In this document: piece by piece, positions 25,201 to 34,516 of the stretch
Layout of the letters: each line of letters begins with the position of its first letter
Numbering within the stretch: position 1 is the first letter of the stretch
Source of the DNA: Fundidesulfovibrio soli
GTDB taxonomy: Bacteria > Desulfobacterota > Desulfovibrionia > Desulfovibrionales > Desulfovibrionaceae
Length of the DNA: 64,000 nt
Direction of reading: 5' to 3'
Assembly (NCBI RefSeq): GCF_022808695.1
Contig: NZ_JAKZKW010000007.1
Coordinates: 18,849 to 82,848 of the forward strand
Translations under genes and position numbers: made by a program
The notes under the pieces: model-generated
Database searches by the model: none
Told to the model about the DNA's origin: nothing
The model's input: only the letters and a program-made list of their open reading frames with translations

Positions 25201-27722
25201 GCTGCGGCCTCCTGCACGGCCGGGCCAAGGGGCAGCCGGATGGTGAAGGTGGTGCCCTCGCCGGGTGCGGAGTTGGCCTGGATCGAGCCGCCGTGGCTGC
25301 TGGTGACGATGAAGTAGCTCACGGAAAGGCCCAGCCCCGTGCCCTCGCCCACTTCCTTGGTGGTGAAGAACGGCTCGAACACCTTTCCCAGCAGCGCCTC
25401 GTCCATGCCCGGGCCGTTGTCCGCGATGTCGATACGGGCCATGCCCGCCTCCACGCAGGTGCGCAGCACGATCCGGGGCGGCCGCGACCCCATGGCGTCA
25501 CTGCCCTTGCTCAAGGCCTGGGCCGCGTTGCGCAGGATGTTCATGGCCACCTGTTCGATCTGCGTGGGTGAGCAATGCACGTGCGGCAAGTCCGTGCCGT
25601 ATTCGCGCACAATCTCCACCTTGCGGAAATCGTACTTCTTTTTCATGTCGTAGTCGTTGGCGCACAGCTCCAGGGCCTTGTCCAGCAGGACGCTGATCTC
25701 CACGGGCACGTGGCCAGTCCCGGGCTTGCGGCTGAATTCGAGCATGTTGGCCACGATGCTGGCGGCCTTTTGACCGGCCTCACGCACGGCGTCCAGCAGC
25801 TCAAAAACCTGCCGCCGGGCGCAATAGTCCCTGATGGCGTCAAGCCCGCAGCCCACCTCCGCCGCCGCGCTCGCATTGGCCGGGATTCCGGCATCCAGGC
25901 GGCGGCGCAGGTTCTGTACGCTCTGCAGGATGCCCGCCAGGGGATTGTTGATCTCATGGGCCATGCCCGCGGCGAGTCCGCCCACGGACATCATCTTTTC
26001 CGTCTCGGCCATGATGGCGTACATCCGGGCACGCTCGTCGATGTCCACGGCGATGATCAGCAGGTAGGCCGCACCTGCCGTCTCTATCCGGCAGAAGGTG
26101 CACTCCGCCAAGCCCTTGCCTTCCTCCGCCCGGCGCAGGCGCAGGTCCGCACGCTGCGGGCCCTCGCCCGCCAGGGCCTTGCGCGCGGGGGAGGAGGGGT
26201 CCGCCGTGTTCCAGATGTCCAGGGAATGCAGAGTGTGGCCGAGCAGTTCCGCCTTGTCCATGCCCAGAAGCTCGGCGGCCGCGCGGCTGGCCATGACGCA
26301 GGCGCCGCCCGAGCAGTCGTAGAGCAGCACCCCCACCGGAGAGTGGTCCAGGATCATTTCGTTGAAGGCGAACGCCCGGCGCAGGGATTCCTCAGCGTCC
26401 ATGCGGGCGGAAATGTCCGTATGGGTGCCGATCACGCGCAGGGGCGCCCCGGAGGCGTCGCGCGCCACCACCTTGCCCACCGCCAGGATCCAGCGGTAGC
26501 GGCCGTCCTTGCAGCGCAGACGGTGCTCCAGCACGTAGCTTGAGCTCTCGCCGGAAAGATAGCGCTGCACGGTCCTGATGGCGGCCTCCCGGTCGTCCGG
26601 GTGCAGCAACTCCCGCCACTGCTCGAAGTTATCCAGCAGTTCGTCCGGCGCGAAGCCGAGCATGGATTTCCAGCGGTCGGAGAAGAAGACCTTGCCGGTG
26701 GCCACGTTCCAGTCCCACACGCCCGCGCCTGCCCCTTCCAATGCGAACTGCCAGCGCTCGTCGCTTTCGCGCAGGGCCGCCAGCAGTTCGGAGAGCTCTC
26801 TTGTTTTTATGCGCACCCGGCGCCGCAACACGATGTTGAAACCGCCCAGCGCCGCGAGGCAGATGGCCACCCCGGCAATGGCGTAGCGGATGGCGCTGAG
26901 CACTTGGGAATTATAGAGCGGGACGCCCAGCCATTTGTTGTTGATGGCCTCCAGCTCCGAGCGGGGAATCCTGTCGAAACCGTTCTCCACCAGGAGTAGC
27001 AGATCCTGGCGGCCTTTTTTCACGGCGCGGTGGAACTCCCCCGAGTACAGGGTGAAGCCGAAGAGGTAGTCGTCGTCCAGGCCGTACTTGTAGAGGTAGT
27101 ACAGGGCCGGGGGCTTATCCACGCAGAAGACCTTGACCACGCCGTCCCGGGCGGCCTTGATCACCTCCTCGTAGCTGCTGAACTCCATGACCGTGGCGAT
27201 GCCGCGTCCGCGAAGCACGTCGATGCAGGCGTCCCCTGCCTTGACGCCTATGGTGAACCCATGGAGGGAATCGAGGTTGGTGATGCCGCTCAGATTCTTG
27301 TGGTAGAAGACGGGGACGTCCAACTGGGCGTAGGCCGGAGTGAAGTCGTAGACCCTGGACCGGGCTTCGTTCTCGAACATGGTGTCGATGACGTCCGCCC
27401 TGCCCTCGGCCATGATCTGCTGGGCCTTGTCCCAGTCGGTGGCAACCAGGTTCACCGCCACGCCCGTGGCCGCGGACCACTGCTTCCACTGATCCACCAG
27501 GACGCCCTGAAGATCGCCGCTCTGGGTGCGGAAGATGTACGGGGGGTAGTTGTCGTCCATGACGACGGTGATGGAGGCGGGCCGCGCCTGGGCCGGCGGC
27601 CCCGGCTGGGCGGAATGAACCGGCGGGGCAGCCTGCGGCGCGACTAGCGCCAGCGCGAAGGCAGCGATAAAGAGCACGAACCTCGCGCCGAACAGCACCG
27701 CTCTGATCCGTCCGCTCTTCAC
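25197..27722 (-). CDS. Membrane sensor histidine kinase with periplasmic amino-acid-binding-like domain
   Basis: An 841-residue kinase. The GTG at 27722, directly behind GGGGGGAGAC, gives a tidy membrane signal ('[21 protein letters not shown]'). Next come a bacterial extracellular solute-binding (SBP_bac_3-like) domain ('[16 protein letters not shown]' to about residue 255), a transmembrane helix ('[20 protein letters not shown]'), a PAS domain with PAC ('[23 protein letters not shown]'), a second PAS, HisKA '[16 protein letters not shown]' and HATPase 'DNGPGMDE', 'GEGTGLGLS'. The DHp carries the same long inter-helix insert as the kinase at 3938-6628. It lies upstream of, and overlaps, rnhB. 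Confidence 0.9.
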
Positions 27723-27814
27723 GTCTCCCCCCGTTTTCTTGCTGAAATGTGCCTGAAAACGTGGCGCGGGCGCAAGGGAAATCGCTTTTAAAGAGTCATT
27801 CCCAGGCAATGGAA

Positions 27815-27849
27815 ACAGGGCAAGACCCCCTTGCGGGATCCTGCCCTGT
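27815..27849 (-). terminator. Probable terminator of the rplS operon
   Basis: ACAGGGCA pairs with TGCCCTGT, with an inner partial GACCC/GGGATC stem. It lies about 75 bases past the rplS stop on the minus strand and is followed by only a short TTT. A further perfect palindrome, GGCGGCCCGGGCCGCC, sits at 27867-27882. Confidence 0.55.
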
Positions 27850-27921
27850 CGGCTTCGAAGCTGGAAGGCGGCCCGGGCCGCCGTGCAGTCAAAGGAGGCC
27901 GTGCCCTGTGGGGCCGAAGGC

Positions 27922-28278
27922 CTAGTTGTTCCAGTCGTTCTTGGACTTGATGCGCGAGGCCTTGCCCTTGAGCTTGCGCAGGTAGTACAGGCGGGAACGG
28001 CGGACCTTGCCCTCGTTCACCACCTCGACGCGCTCGATGAAGGGCGAGTACATGGGGAACACGCGCTCCACGCCGACGCCGTCGGACACCTTGCGCACCG
28101 TGAAGGTGCAGTTGGTGGTGCCCTTGCGCAGGCGCAGTACGGCGCCCTGGAACACCTGGATGCGCTCCTTTTCGCCCTCGAGGATGCGGAAATGCACCTT
28201 CACCGTGTCGCCGGGCTTGAACGAAGGCATATCCAGGCGGATATGCTCGGATTCGATCTGACGGATGATGTTGCTCAT
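27922..28278 (-). CDS. rplS: Ribosomal protein bL19
   Basis: A 118-residue protein with the full L19 pattern: 'FKPGDTVKVHFRILEGEKERIQVFQGAVLRLRKG', 'FTVRKVSDGVGVERVFP' and 'KVRRSRLYYLRKLKGKASRI'. It sits at the 30S-50S interface. It is the last gene of the ffh-rpsP-khpA-rimM-trmD-rplS operon, 35 bases after trmD. I start it at the ATG at 28278, with an AGGAGACAGGCC ribosome site. Confidence 0.97.
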   Translation of the reverse strand: MSNIIRQIESEHIRLDMPSFKPGDTVKVHFRILEGEKERIQVFQGAVLRLRKGTTNCTFTVRKVSDGVGVERVFPMYSPFIERVEVVNEGKVRRSRLYYLRKLKGKASRIKSKNDWNN

Positions 28279-28313
28279 GGCCTGTCTCCTTATGACTGGC
28301 TTCACGGGGAAGC

Positions 28314-29591
28314 TCAAAAAATGTCGCCCAAAATACGGTCCAGCAGGATGGCGCAGGCGGCCCGCACAGGCAGGTGGTTGTAACCGCCGTAGGGCCTCAC
28401 CGGGGCCAGCAGCCCGTGGGTGAGGGCCAGGGCCTCGGGGGCCAGCCCCGATCCGGTGCCCAGCACCAGGAGCACGGGGCGCTCCTCTAGGGCCTGGCGC
28501 ACGCCGCCCGGGGTCAGCGCGCCGTCCGGCCGGGCGCTGGTGGCCAGCACCAGCGGTTCCTGGCCGCATGACTCCGTCACGCCTGCAACCGCGTCTTCCA
28601 GGGTGGAAACCACCCTGACCATCCCGAAAGCCTCGGCCCTGTCGGGGTTGCCCTTGCCGCCCGCCCCGCCGGTCCAGTGACCGAGCAGAGTGGCCGCCAG
28701 AGCCTGCTGATCCTCCAGGGGAGTGACCGCAAAAAATCCCGCAAGACCATACGTTCGGGAAATGCGGGCTATATCGTGGAGGTCGAGGTTGGTCAAGGAA
28801 ACAGTGACGGTGTGGCCCATTTTGTTCATCACGGGGCCATGCACCAGGGCCACGTGAAGGTTTCGCCCGGGCAGCGTCCTGCGCAGGGCGGCAAGATGCG
28901 CCCTGTCGCGCGGGTCCAGCCGGGCCTCGGCCAGCAGTTCGGGGCGCCGCGCCATGGTCTGCTCCAGGGACTGCTCCCTGCGCCAGCGGGCCACCTTGGC
29001 GTGGTCGCCGCCCAGGAGCACGGGGGGGACGCCCAGGCCCTCGTAGACCTCGGGGCGGGTGTAGTGCGGATATTCCAGCACCCCGTGAGAGAAGCTCTCC
29101 TCGTCGCCGGACTCCTCCTTGCCCATGAAGCCGGGCAGCAGGCGCGAGACGGCCTCGATCAGGCACAAGGAGGCGGACTCCCCGCCGGAGAGCACGAAAT
29201 CCCCCACGGAGACCAGCTCGATGGGGTAAAGCTCCAGCAGGCGCTCGTCGATGCCCTCGTAGCGGCCGCAGAGCACGGTCAGCGCCGGTTCGGCCGCCAG
29301 TTCGCGGGCCAGGGCCTGGCTCATGGGCTTGCCGCGCGGCGAGAGCATGAGGATGCGGCCCGGGGCCTCCAGGGAGCGCAGGGCGCCGGCCAGGGGGTCG
29401 AGCATCATGACCATGCCGGGGCCGCCGCCGTAGGGGCGGTCGTCCACGGTGCGGTGCTTGTTTGTGGCGAAGTCGCGCGGGTTCACCAGGTTGAAGTCCA
29501 CGATGCCCTGCTCCACCGCCTTGCCCAGCAGGGCGCAGGAGAGGGGGGAATCGTAGAATTCCGGGAACAAGGTGAGGATGTTGAAGCGCAT
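28314..29591 (-). CDS. trmD: tRNA (guanine37-N1)-methyltransferase with C-terminal RNA-methyltransferase-like domain
   Basis: A 425-residue fusion. Residues 1-235 are TrmD: 'MRFNILTLFPEFYDSPL', 'VDDRPYGGGPGMVMM', the trefoil-knot 'LCGRYEGIDERLLE' and 'LSGGESASL'. It makes m1G37, preventing frameshifting. Residues about 240-425 ('LVHGPVMNKMGHTVTVSLTNLDLHDIARISRTYGL') match the SAM-dependent RNA methyltransferase family PF09936, which occurs as an extension of TrmD in Desulfovibrio-type bacteria. Its ATG lies only three bases after the stop of the inserted nuclease-like gene, so its normal leader has been replaced and translation may be coupled to that gene. Confidence 0.95.
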   Translation of the reverse strand: MRFNILTLFPEFYDSPLSCALLGKAVEQGIVDFNLVNPRDFATNKHRTVDDRPYGGGPGMVMMLDPLAGALRSLEAPGRILMLSPRGKPMSQALARELAAEPALTVLCGRYEGIDERLLELYPIELVSVGDFVLSGGESASLCLIEAVSRLLPGFMGKEESGDEESFSHGVLEYPHYTRPEVYEGLGVPPVLLGGDHAKVARWRREQSLEQTMARRPELLAEARLDPRDRAHLAALRRTLPGRNLHVALVHGPVMNKMGHTVTVSLTNLDLHDIARISRTYGLAGFFAVTPLEDQQALAATLLGHWTGGAGGKGNPDRAEAFGMVRVVSTLEDAVAGVTESCGQEPLVLATSARPDGALTPGGVRQALEERPVLLVLGTGSGLAPEALALTHGLLAPVRPYGGYNHLPVRAACAILLDRILGDIF

Positions 29592-29594
29592 TTT

Positions 29595-30488
29595 CTAATA
29601 ATCACTTCGCAACAAGTCTAAAAACCTTTCACGTTCCCTTTTTGTTGTTAGCCTTAGGACACGCTGCGAAATTGATATCAGAATGTTTTTCTGTTCTTCC
29701 CACGCGGCATCCGAGTAGACCCTTTGCCCCGAGCGAATACTATTCGCAACACCTAGAACATGCTGCAGAAACCGTCCGGGGATTAACAAATCTTGTAGAT
29801 CACACCATCCAGTGAGAAGTTTAGCCTTATTATATCTTGCTTCCAACAATGAATCGCACTTCTCGTCCTTACAAGCACAATACACCTTAATTATACCAAC
29901 TCCATCTCTATCTTCTACACTCACCACATTACCAGAACATTCTTTCGTTATAGATTTTTTGAGCAAGTCCGCGCCACACACTTCGCACGGCAAGGGTACA
30001 TACTCATCAACAACACAATGTATTGGTTTAATATTATCGTAAGACTGAGGAAAGTATCTCTGTAAAAGCATACTATGGAAGTCAAACAAAAGCCGCTTTT
30101 CAATCAATTTTTTGTCGTATATTTTGTACGATATTATCTCACCCCTCTCAACCAAGCGGTTAAGACGAGTATTTAAGCCAGCACTTGGGAGCGTAGAATA
30201 CACGCCAATAAAGCAGTCTGCTCCAAAAGCCTTCATTCTCTCCAGAATATTTGACTCGTCGGATTCATTTACGGATTTGTCAGACACAGCATTATGCTTA
30301 CAGCTGACCATGCTCAATAATTTGTGGTCAGACGCTAAGCCGGAAATTGTCTCAGAAACAATAAAATCCTTTCCTTCATCAGCCCCGCGATCTGGTGATG
30401 AGACGATTTTGAAACCAACATCTGCAAGGAAATCTCTAGCAAAAAGCTCCCAAATCTCAGGCGATGTAATTTCCTTGAAGTCTATCAT
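29595..30488 (-). CDS. Restriction-endonuclease-like protein (Mrr-type fold) inserted in the ribosomal operon
   Basis: A 297-residue protein. The N-terminus ('ELFARDFLADVGFKIVSSPDRGADEGKDFIVSE ... MVSCKHNA', residues about 14-66) matches the PD-(D/E)xK pattern of Mrr-like nucleases, with D in 'GKDF' and 'SCK' as the xxK. A middle part holds paired cysteines, 'CEVCGAD' and 'CACKDEKC', consistent with a zinc site. The C-terminal helical part is unassigned. Composition is strikingly AT-rich (22 G/C in the 60 bases 29881-29940, against 47 in 29341-29400 of trmD). No partner methylase or helicase is adjacent. It probably cuts foreign or modified DNA, but this is inference. The Shine-Dalgarno is weak. 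Confidence 0.75.
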   Translation of the reverse strand: MIDFKEITSPEIWELFARDFLADVGFKIVSSPDRGADEGKDFIVSETISGLASDHKLLSMVSCKHNAVSDKSVNESDESNILERMKAFGADCFIGVYSTLPSAGLNTRLNRLVERGEIISYKIYDKKLIEKRLLFDFHSMLLQRYFPQSYDNIKPIHCVVDEYVPLPCEVCGADLLKKSITKECSGNVVSVEDRDGVGIIKVYCACKDEKCDSLLEARYNKAKLLTGWCDLQDLLIPGRFLQHVLGVANSIRSGQRVYSDAAWEEQKNILISISQRVLRLTTKRERERFLDLLRSDY

Positions 30489-30581
30489 GACTTACCCACG
30501 CCATAAGAAGTTGAGACAACAACACAATCGATTATGGAAACCAGATAAACACTTTACTACAAATACAACACCCCAGCGGAA

Positions 30582-31118
30582 TCACTCCCCCGGCTGCGAA
30601 AGCTCCAGGAGCCCCTGCGGCGGGTCGATGACGATCCGCCGCTCCCCGGCGTCGATCTCGGGCACGGTCTCCTCGGTGGCGGGCAGCAGGATCTCGCGCC
30701 CGCCCTCGCCCCGGATCAGCCAGACGTCCTGCCCGGGCAGGTCCATGAAGCCCTCCAGCACGCCCACGGGCTCACCGCCGGGCAGCACCACGTCGAAGCC
30801 GACGATCTCGTGCAGATAAATCTCGTCGTCGTCGAGTTCGGGCAGGTCCTCCGGGCGCACCAGCACCTGGCAGCCGCGCAGGGCCTCGGCGGCGTCGCGG
30901 TCGGCGACGCCCTTGATCGTGAGCAGCATCCTGCCCTGATGCGGCCTGCTCGTGAGAATCTCCACGACGCGGTCCGCGCCCTTGGCGGGGCGCAACCACA
31001 CCTTGCCGCCGGGCGCGTAGAGCGAAGGGGAGTCAGCGTGGTTCTCCACGCTGAACTCCCCCCGGATTCCGTGTGGCTTGACGACCTCGCCGATGACCAC
31101 CATGTCTTTCGCGGCCAA
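30582..31118 (-). CDS. rimM: 16S rRNA processing protein RimM
   Basis: A 178-residue protein with 'VVIGEVVKPHGIRGEFSVE' (RimM N-terminal barrel), 'YLHEIVGFDVV' and the PRC-barrel segment 'GVLEGFMDLPGQDVWLI ... ILLPATEETVPEID'. It assists 30S head assembly around ribosomal protein S19. I prefer the TTG start at 31118 because GGAGG lies eight bases before it; an ATG at 31103 is the alternative. It follows khpA after a hairpin and precedes the inserted nuclease gene. Confidence 0.93.
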   Translation of the reverse strand: MAAKDMVVIGEVVKPHGIRGEFSVENHADSPSLYAPGGKVWLRPAKGADRVVEILTSRPHQGRMLLTIKGVADRDAAEALRGCQVLVRPEDLPELDDDEIYLHEIVGFDVVLPGGEPVGVLEGFMDLPGQDVWLIRGEGGREILLPATEETVPEIDAGERRIVIDPPQGLLELSQPGE

Positions 31119-31149
31119 TTCGGGAGCCTCCAGAAAGAAAAGGGAAAGC

Positions 31150-31173
31150 GAGCCCCTCCGTGAGGAGGGGCTC
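31150..31173 (-). other. Hairpin between khpA and rimM
   Basis: GAGCCCCTCC, loop GTGA, GGAGGGGCTC is a perfect 10-bp stem in the 58-base gap between the two genes. It has no T-tract, so it may serve as an RNA processing or partial attenuation site in the operon. Confidence 0.55.
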
Positions 31174-31176
31174 CGC

Positions 31177-31410
31177 CTATTCCAGGATTTCCAGCACTGA
31201 GCGCTTGCGCGCCTTGGTGGAAGCCGCGCCGAGGATGGTGCGCATGGCACGGGCCGTGCGGCCCTGCTTGCCGATGACCTTTCCCAGGTCCTCCTTGGCT
31301 ACCTTGAGCTCGATGACGGACGTCTGTTCGCCCTCGACCTCGTTCACCTGGACCTGTTCCGGGTTATCCACCAGCGACTTGGCGACGTACTCTATGAGAT
31401 CCTTCAGCAT
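31177..31410 (-). CDS. khpA: KH-domain RNA-binding protein
   Basis: A 77-residue protein made of one KH domain: '[21 protein letters not shown]' then the GxxG loop in '[19 protein letters not shown]'. KhpA-type proteins bind structured RNA and often pair with KhpB. It lies between rpsP and rimM as in many bacteria. The ATG at 31410 is chosen; a longer open frame has no ribosome site. Confidence 0.93.
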
Positions 31411-31467
31411 AATCGTGGCACCTCCGCGTGTTGGGCACGCGTCCCGGCGCCGCATCGCCCGCTGGGA

Positions 31468-31713
31468 CTAGTTGTTCGAGCCGGCCTTGCGCAGCAGCGC
31501 CCTGACGGTGTCGGTGGGCTGTGCGCCGCGATCGACCCAGTACTTCAGCTTCTCGGCGTCGACCACCACTTCGGCGGGCTCCACCATGGGGTTGTAGTGC
31601 CCCACGTAGTCAAGGGCGCGACCGTCCCGGCGGGTGGCGCTGTCCATTGCGACGATGCGGTAGAAGGGACGTTTCTTGCTGCCCATTCTGGTCAGTCTGA
31701 TTTTCATGGCCAT
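31468..31713 (-). CDS. rpsP: Ribosomal protein bS16
   Basis: An 81-residue protein with '[28 protein letters not shown]' and 'DYVGHYNPM', diagnostic of S16. It binds 16S rRNA early in 30S assembly. It lies 89 bases after ffh and 57 before khpA on the same strand. A second in-frame ATG two codons later (31707) is also possible. Confidence 0.97.
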
Positions 31714-31802
31714 GGTTCATTCACCCCCGATGAGGATATGTAACGTGTTTTACGGTTCTGGCAAGCCCGCCACGGCGACGATCCGGCGCGCGGGCAGGCC
31801 GC

Positions 31803-33242
<1,440 letters not shown>

Positions 33243-33334
33243 GGTCCCTTCTTGTGCCGGTAAAATTAAAGCCCTCTCGCCTACCGCAGGCAAGGGGGCC
33301 TGTCAAGGAAGAATTGCGCGCTCTTCCGGGCCTT

Positions 33335-34516
33335 TCAGCCCGCGATGGCCTTCTTGAACCCCTCCGCGGCGCCCAAAATCACCTTGGTGCCCACGCAGAA
33401 GGTCAGCCGGAAGTATCCGGGCATGCCGAAGCCCGAGCCGGGCACGGCCAGCACCCGCTCCTTGCAGAGCTTCTCCACGAAGGCCACGTCGTCGCCGCCC
33501 GGGGCCTTGGGGAAGAAGTAGAACGCGCCCTTGGGCATCACGAACTCGTAGCCCGCGTCCCCCAGCACCTTGGCCATGGCGTCGCGGCGCTCGGCGTACA
33601 CGGACACGTCCACCTGCTGGCCCAGGGCCTTGAGCAGGATGGCCTGCCCGATGGCCGGAGCGTTGACGTAGCCCAGGATGCGGTTGGCGAACACCACGCC
33701 CGCCATGAGCTCCTCCTTGCCGGGCATCTGCGGGGCCAGGGCCACGTAGCCGATGCGCTCGCCCGCCAGGGAGAGGTTCTTGGAGAAGGAGCTGACCACC
33801 ACCGTGTAGGGGTAGATGTTCATGATCGAAGGCACGTGCGCGCCGTCGTAGGTCAGGAAGCGGTACGGCTCGTCGGCCAGCAGCAGGATGGGCTTCTCCC
33901 GCTTGGCGTTCTCGGCCGTGAGCCCGTCGGCCAGGGCCTTGATGGTCTTCTCGGAGTAGACCACGCCCGTGGGGTTGTTGGGCGAGTTGAGCAGCACCAC
34001 GCGGGTCTTGGGAGTGATCGCCGCCAGCAGGGCCGGGACGTCCAGGTCGAAGTCCGGCAGGGTCGGCACGGTGACCAGCCTGCCCCCATGGTTGCCCACG
34101 TAGAACCCGTACTCCACGAAGAAGGGGCGCGGGCAGATGACCTCGTCGCCCGGGGTGAGCACGGCCCGGAAGAAGGCGTTGATGCCGCCGGCCGCGCCGC
34201 AGCTGAGCAGCAGGTCCGAGCCGGTGACGGGGGCTTCCTGCTCCTGCGCAACCTGTGCGGCCAGAGCCTCGCGCACGTGGGGGTGCCCGGCGTTGGGCAT
34301 GTAGCCGAAAGCGAAGGGCTCGGTGGCGCGGGCGGCCAGCTCGGCCAGGCATTCGCCCACCACTCCGGGCGAGGGCAGGTCCGGGTTGCCCAGGCTGAAG
34401 TCGTACACATTGTCCTCGCCGTATATCTTCTTCATCTCCGCGCCCTGCTCGAAGATGCGCCTGATCCAGGACCCTTTGCTCAAGGCCTCGGAAATCTCGC
34501 TCGACAACAAACTCAT
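33335..34516 (-). CDS. PLP-dependent aminotransferase class I/II
   Basis: A 393-residue fold-type I aminotransferase. It has 'YDFSLGNPDLPSPGVVGE' near the N-terminus, 'LLSCGAAGGINAFFRAVL', 'LLNSPNNPTGVVYSEKTI' and the PLP-lysine in 'VVSSFSKNLSLAGERIGYV'. It transfers an amino group between an amino acid and a 2-oxo acid; aspartate or aromatic specificity cannot be decided from these motifs. The ATG at 34516 fits the family start. It is divergent from the U32 gene and separated from ffh by about 90 bases. Confidence 0.9.
   Translation of the reverse strand: MSLLSSEISEALSKGSWIRRIFEQGAEMKKIYGEDNVYDFSLGNPDLPSPGVVGECLAELAARATEPFAFGYMPNAGHPHVREALAAQVAQEQEAPVTGSDLLLSCGAAGGINAFFRAVLTPGDEVICPRPFFVEYGFYVGNHGGRLVTVPTLPDFDLDVPALLAAITPKTRVVLLNSPNNPTGVVYSEKTIKALADGLTAENAKREKPILLLADEPYRFLTYDGAHVPSIMNIYPYTVVVSSFSKNLSLAGERIGYVALAPQMPGKEELMAGVVFANRILGYVNAPAIGQAILLKALGQQVDVSVYAERRDAMAKVLGDAGYEFVMPKGAFYFFPKAPGGDDVAFVEKLCKERVLAVPGSGFGMPGYFRLTFCVGTKVILGAAEGFKKAIAG

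Follow-up and report, generated by a model that had tools for sequence, protein, structure and literature searches.

Searches for candidate defence genes usually turn to islands and mobile elements. The nearest described kinds of setting to the one reported here are the core defence hotspots (PMC10250203) and the P2/P4 cargo hotspots (PMC9122126), in both of which, in the sections of these papers available to us, fixed flanks enclose variable defence cargo; the hotspot cDHS1 spans 1-224 kb in the available part of PMC10250203. In the Z region of the P2-EC67 prophage (AJ512685), ORF1 is a single-gene cargo in a variable slot, lies between inverted repeats and carries the annotation of a putative lysogenic conversion protein; the record gives no function, and a literature search under the name P2-EC67 returned nothing. 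Among nucleases, the Mrr-cat restriction enzymes such as EcoKMrr, MspJI and AspBHI have a (D/E)..(D/E/Q)xK motif with D, E or Q at its middle position (PMC3874153, in the part available), and the anti-phage NTPase Avs4 has a nuclease domain. PADLOC further holds PDC-S15, an FRG-domain candidate for phage defence. Here we set against these systems a gene of Fundidesulfovibrio soli that lies inside an essential ribosomal operon, between rimM and trmD. In our judgement it is probably a horizontally acquired, stand-alone Mrr-like PD-(D/E)xK nuclease, most likely restricting phage or foreign DNA, and carried as single-gene cargo in an operon joint that both takes guests and breaks.

The window, by which we mean the whole stretch of 64,000 nucleotides of F. 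soli that was analysed, carries the operon in the order ffh, rpsP, khpA, rimM, trmD, rplS. The additional gene, called the guest here, occupies 29595..30488 on the reverse strand, which also carries the parts, leader and flanking genes located below, and it begins with ATG and encodes 297 amino acids. Upstream stands rimM (30582..31103; Pfam RimM and PRC_RimM, protein start MVVIGEVVKP), and downstream stands trmD (28314..29591; Pfam tRNA_m1G_MT), fused to a Methyltrn_RNA_4 domain to give a protein of 425 aa. By eye, in another locus (L122, genome G618), this second part of TrmD is a separate 168-aa ORF in a 577-nt trmD-rplS gap. From the rimM stop codon, TGA at 30582-30584, an AT-rich leader of 93 nt (30489..30581) runs to the guest ATG, while the far end of the guest reads TAG-AAA-ATG, leaving three bases between its stop and the trmD start at 29591. 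The whole gene has a G+C of 0.41 and a GC3 of 0.40, against a GC3 of 0.84-0.93 in rpsP, khpA, rimM and trmD, and 300-nt windows inside it range from 0.38 to 0.45 G+C, against 0.59-0.74 in the adjoining operon genes. An earlier note, made from the letters of the window, had pointed to a 297-codon AT-rich gene of foreign composition in an otherwise intact operon, with its stop three bases before the trmD ATG, and each of these points is borne out by the ORF, its flanking genes and its composition. The genome holds a single copy. There is no integrase, transposase or terminal repeat beside the guest and no other substantial ORF in the rimM-trmD interval, and the repeats at its edges are short and chance-like, so that the gene would be a single-gene cargo with no mobile-element machinery next to it. 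An Rfam scan of 27000-34000 gave no match, and a comparison of the leader DNA with phages gave one match, at E 0.8. Judged by a congener, G004, which keeps a 67%-identical protein at the same joint despite differences at 47 of 67 comparable fourfold-degenerate sites, the guest is more than a chance ORF.

The encoded protein is predicted to be an Mrr-like PD-(D/E)xK nuclease. An AlphaFold2 model built from 51 sequences (mean pLDDT 88, pTM 0.64) places a nuclease domain in residues 1-147 (30048..30488), and the best structural matches of this domain are AspBHI (Z 13.5), MspJI (11.7), AF1548 (11.5) and the nuclease domain of Avs4 (10.8), the rows after these standing at Z 7-8. A nuclease-fold match, whose lack would have told against the earlier note, was thus found, and the predicted fold agrees with the Mrr-like pattern that it had read from the sequence. 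Profile searches are less decisive for the guest itself than for its relatives. Pfam Mrr_cat reaches E 0.013 and 16 bits on the guest protein, below the cut-off of 21, and lies above the cut-off for the G004 orthologue (22.6) and P2-EC67 ORF1 (24.1), below it for the homologue in G553 and absent for that in L177; at E<=0.01 it is found in 46 of 51 homologues. The protein is covered by no PADLOC model, NCBIfam gives one chance-level match (E 0.11), and a sequence search of solved structures returned none for the protein and one match at E 0.49 for the profile.

Within the nuclease domain, D41, E46, S62 and K64 are invariant in 51 homologues, and D41-x20-S62-C63-K64 (30297..30368), with E46, is the candidate active site. 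The corresponding spacing in MspJI is D-x20-Q-x-K, so that the distance from D to K is the same in both. The middle position of the Mrr-cat motif, D, E or Q in the available part of PMC3874153, is serine in 51 of 51 homologues, with D41 and K64 kept, and because of this replacement we call the guest Mrr-like and not a canonical Mrr. It differs from the Mrr-cat enzymes also in that Pfam on the full protein finds no modified-base reader domain of the type IV modification-dependent restriction enzymes (Mrr_N or SRA-like), and in its C-terminal part, where C168, C171, C206 and C211 (29856..29987), invariant in the five sequences of alignment A1, suggest a zinc-ribbon-like structure that would bind zinc. 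From Avs4 it differs in having no NTPase and no repeat sensor, the whole protein being 297 aa long. In four distant homologues (L226, L227, L230, L234) the C-terminal part is replaced by one that matches the C-terminal section of the PADLOC model PD-T4-6, so that the nuclease domain is a module with varying partners; the main text of PMC9519451, in the part available, does not mention PD-T4-6. The N-terminal domain would cut DNA, and the C-terminal part would recognise some feature of incoming DNA and so select the target.

The guest family is rare and scattered. Homologues were found at 55 loci from many phyla in the genome collection, on 3 viral contigs, on 4 plasmids and in 1 phage record, the last being P2-EC67 ORF1, which is 45.5% identical over 98% of the protein; like the guest it is a single-gene cargo, but it sits in a phage slot with flanking inverted repeats, and the guest sits without them in an essential host operon. 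Close copies occur in 13 of 5,426 E. coli genomes, where RefSeq names them 'restriction endonuclease'; two of these were inspected, and both have phage-type surroundings: a phage remnant, in which the copy comes directly after a tail fibre assembly gene, and a stretch in which phage tail genes, a capsid fragment and an integrase flank the copy. Elsewhere one homologue belongs to a conjugative-plasmid island with genes for a TrlF-type ATPase and a caspase, another adjoins AbiU (5e-192), HEC-06-like and ThsA-like ORFs, and a third adjoins an AbiJ_NTD5/DUF4145 ORF that has no PADLOC match. By eye, the homologues in L197 and L233 lie between hsdS- and hsdR-like ORFs, and four neighbours of homologues match type I specificity models. 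A further locus (L032:617-1426) has a Trypsin_2-like ORF, below the Pfam cut-off, 75 nt upstream of the homologue, possibly forming a two-gene system with it.

Neighbouring ORFs were sampled at two distances from the homologues, 120 out of 180 from the nearest 1.5 kb and 120 out of 217 from at least 6 kb away, and 457 PADLOC models reach 1e-10 in the near set against 32 in the far set, a count of models rather than proteins in which many related type I specificity models inflate the 457. Action against phage or foreign DNA is likely for the guest, because homologues turn up in the Z region of the prophage, next to AbiU and inside type I restriction loci. The suggestion in the earlier note that this is a defence gene therefore gains support by association, from the settings of homologues, and the search of the defence database that it proposed gave no PADLOC model. 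The absence of such a model, the serine in all 51 homologues and the sub-threshold Mrr_cat score of the window protein all weigh against our preferred explanation. The protein is not named in the available part of PMC9122126.

To place the insertion, the five joints of the operon were measured in 156 of 247 family genomes, mostly those with the best TrmD matches, each joint being counted where both genes lay on the same stretch, after exclusion of 16 duplicate or contig-edge loci and of 23 loci from other families of the order. Of 115 family rimM-trmD joints, 6 hold an ORF of at least 200 aa, and none of the other joints does (ffh-rpsP 0/96, rpsP-khpA 0/111, khpA-rimM 0/111, trmD-rplS 0/146; together 0/464). 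The difference gives a Fisher p of 5.5e-5 with genomes treated as independent though they are related and the sample leans to window-like TrmD; counted as four cargo types it gives 0.0015 (against 0/392, before the last 24 genomes were added). One of the rimM-trmD gaps counted, at -253 (L271), probably reflects a mis-set gene end. All of the cargo ORFs run in the direction of the operon. The Mrr-like gene is found in F. soli (G000) and G004; an FRG-domain gene ending 2 nt before trmD is found in G020 and G474, of one genus; an SBP_bac_3 gene is found in G033 and G479, of another genus represented by those two genomes (a third member, G497, being outside the sample); and G033 (L070) also holds an AT-rich (0.38) ORF of 302 aa, 19 nt before trmD, that is absent from G479 and has no Pfam, PADLOC or plasmid match. 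The FRG protein of G020 matches PDC-S15 at 5.8e-43, so that a PADLOC defence candidate of a protein family unrelated to the Mrr-like guest occupies the same joint in another genus. The Mrr-like and FRG/PDC-S15 cargo look like defence genes. For the SBP_bac_3 gene and the 302-aa ORF such a role is not evident, and that two of the four cargo types are of this sort also counts against our explanation. In other loci, the 878-nt gap of G021 holds no ORF over 92 aa, and the gap of L145 holds a 75-aa tautomerase-like ORF (Pfam 5e-15). The largest rimM-trmD gap in 22 measured genomes from other families of the order is 244 nt.

The operon also comes apart at this point. Among 146 family loci with adjacent trmD and rplS, rimM is not upstream in 42 (L118, L144 and L073, for example), 38 of these having more than 4 kb in view; rimM was located elsewhere in 10 of 10 split genomes searched, and rpsP, khpA and rimM were still together on one 3.5-kb stretch in 8 of 8 split loci examined. 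Since 6 of 115 loci hold an ORF of at least 200 aa there and 42 of 146 are split there, rimM|trmD is the operon joint that both takes cargo and breaks. Set beside the core defence hotspots, the joint shows constant flanks in 115 loci and four cargo types, two of them defence-like, in 6, and its occupancy, at 6 of 115, falls short of the high occupancy of such hotspots. It differs from them and from the P2/P4 hotspots also in that it lies inside an operon and usually takes single genes, which run with the operon and end 2-19 nt short of trmD. A search of the literature for insertions at rimM/trmD and for guest genes of core or ribosomal operons showed, in titles and the beginnings of abstracts, no cargo between rimM and trmD; cargo at this joint, against none at the other four, is new here, as is the splitting of the operon there.

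How the guest came to the joint can be approached through the genus. Comparison of the junction in relatives, which the earlier note had called for as the check on an ancestral gene, shows that the guest gene is not ancestral there: it is absent from 4 of 5 congeners with a readable rimM-trmD junction (a sixth, G006, is 66% complete and has no trmD match), and the family and phylum samples hold a homologue of any kind in 5 of 247 and 3 of 395 genomes respectively, own genome included in both counts. The nearest sampled relative, G001 (TrmD 98.8% identical), aligns at 96% DNA identity as far as 3 nt beyond the rimM stop and, at 96% once more, from the trmD ATG onward, with no BLASTN match of note between those points, and its corresponding interval is 252 nt of largely repeated sequence, parts of which match 29-56 places in each of six genus genomes. 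This gap (L061:4017-4268) consists of a palindromic module and a module of about 45 bp, belonging to a REP- or MITE-like repeat family of which one copy overlaps positions 1-57 of the window. The rimM-trmD gaps of G002, G003 and G005 are 140, 27 and 8 nt, and a genome-wide search of G001, G002, G003, G005 and G006 found no guest homologue. In the remaining congener, G004, the gene sits at the same joint and likewise 3 bases before trmD. The other family holders are G553 (48%), G498 (36%) and G494 (29%, partial), and their genes have neither rimM nor trmD adjoining.

Two histories may be weighed for the pair of copies. The first is one gain in the ancestor of the genus, with the gene then passed down vertically in two lineages and lost from the remaining four, so that it would be an old resident and not a recurrent arrival. 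It accommodates the sister relation of the F. soli and G004 copies in the tree (support 100/100), their identical spacing to trmD, and a divergence of the guest proteins (67% identity) close to that of RimM (68%; TrmD 79%). Under it, however, two genes whose fourfold sites differ at 47 of 67 would have kept a GC3 of 0.40 and 0.37 among rpsP, khpA, rimM and trmD genes at 0.76-0.93 in both genomes, 4 of 6 genomes lack the gene, and the leaders of the two copies have no detectable likeness (398 of 2000 shuffles reach the score); we hold this history to be somewhat unlikely. We favour separate arrivals, the sources being AT-rich and related, or a transfer whose donor lies outside the sample, because the low GC3 persists despite near-saturated silent sites, because each copy is missing from the closest relative compared (G001 for F. 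soli; G005, TrmD 88%, for G004), and because the leaders are dissimilar. With either one gain or two, 67% protein identity alongside nearly saturated silent sites points to purifying selection on the guest.

The position of the guest flush with trmD raises the question of how the two genes are translated. Consensus promoters and terminators in 29400-30800 number 0 and 0 (shuffles average 1.6 and 1.7; other promoter types lie outside the scan), and for this reason the guest would most likely be read from the operon transcript. A 4-nt gene overlap is the usual layout of translational coupling, and rimM and trmD show one in 25 of 115 family loci. The anti-Shine-Dalgarno pairing of trmD is weak in the two genomes with the Mrr-like guest (-1.0 and +1.2 kcal/mol), against a family median of -3.3 kcal/mol (10-90% range -6.6 to -0.55) and -2.1 kcal/mol in the guest-free G001. 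Given this weakness in both genomes, the simplest route to TrmD would be for ribosomes finishing the guest to begin again at trmD, just as they may when coming from rimM where the two overlap by 4 nt, and a guest flush with the trmD start would then be tolerated. Coupling of trmD to the guest is plausible, and with the TAG-aaa-ATG arrangement and the weak Shine-Dalgarno the translation of trmD may depend on it. Against a general rule stand the value of the guest-free G001 and the pairing at trmD in the other cargo genomes, which is of ordinary or strong level (-2.8 and -3.0 kcal/mol with the FRG gene, -6.9 and -5.8 kcal/mol in G033 and G479) and counts against our explanation.

Taken further, the joint would be a hostage pocket, in which trmD relies on ribosomes that finish the guest, so that a nonsense or frameshift mutation in the guest stops TrmD and the guest is kept, as in a toxin-free addiction module; the protection would go to guests lying flush with the trmD start. 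This reading we think distinctly unlikely, the more so for the pairing at trmD in the other cargo genomes. The related idea in the earlier note, that coupling to trmD could protect the guest from loss, was not upheld: G001 and G005 are without the gene, and in them loss and never having gained it are indistinguishable.

Our preferred reading, of an acquired nuclease acting on phage or foreign DNA, has two further competitors. The guest might instead be a DNA-repair or genome-maintenance nuclease of the host that was recruited into a translation operon, as its place among translation genes, the purifying selection on it and the presence of repair nucleases such as EndoMS (Z 7.9) in the list of fold matches would allow; yet a host function of this sort is hard to square with so sparse and uneven a distribution (3 of 395 genomes in the phylum and 5 of 247 in the family, with the own genome among them) and with homologues spread across many phyla, on a prophage and on plasmids, and we consider it highly unlikely. 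A selfish, homing-like nuclease, which would cut empty rimM|trmD joints and insert a copy of itself there, would suit the same joint in two species and an interval swapped whole, without integrase or edge repeats, but is scarcely credible when homologues sit at many unrelated sites, guests other than this nuclease use the joint, and the G001 interval is itself made of genome-wide repeats.

A single guest in an essential ribosomal operon is easily overlooked, and the present one belongs to a family that has no PADLOC model although its homologues occupy a prophage cargo slot and many phyla. Should the rimM|trmD joint prove a true landing pocket, its two flanking genes could serve as fixed markers in the search for more cargo in the family, and whether accessory genes are lost more slowly when coupled to an essential one could be tested simply in this system.
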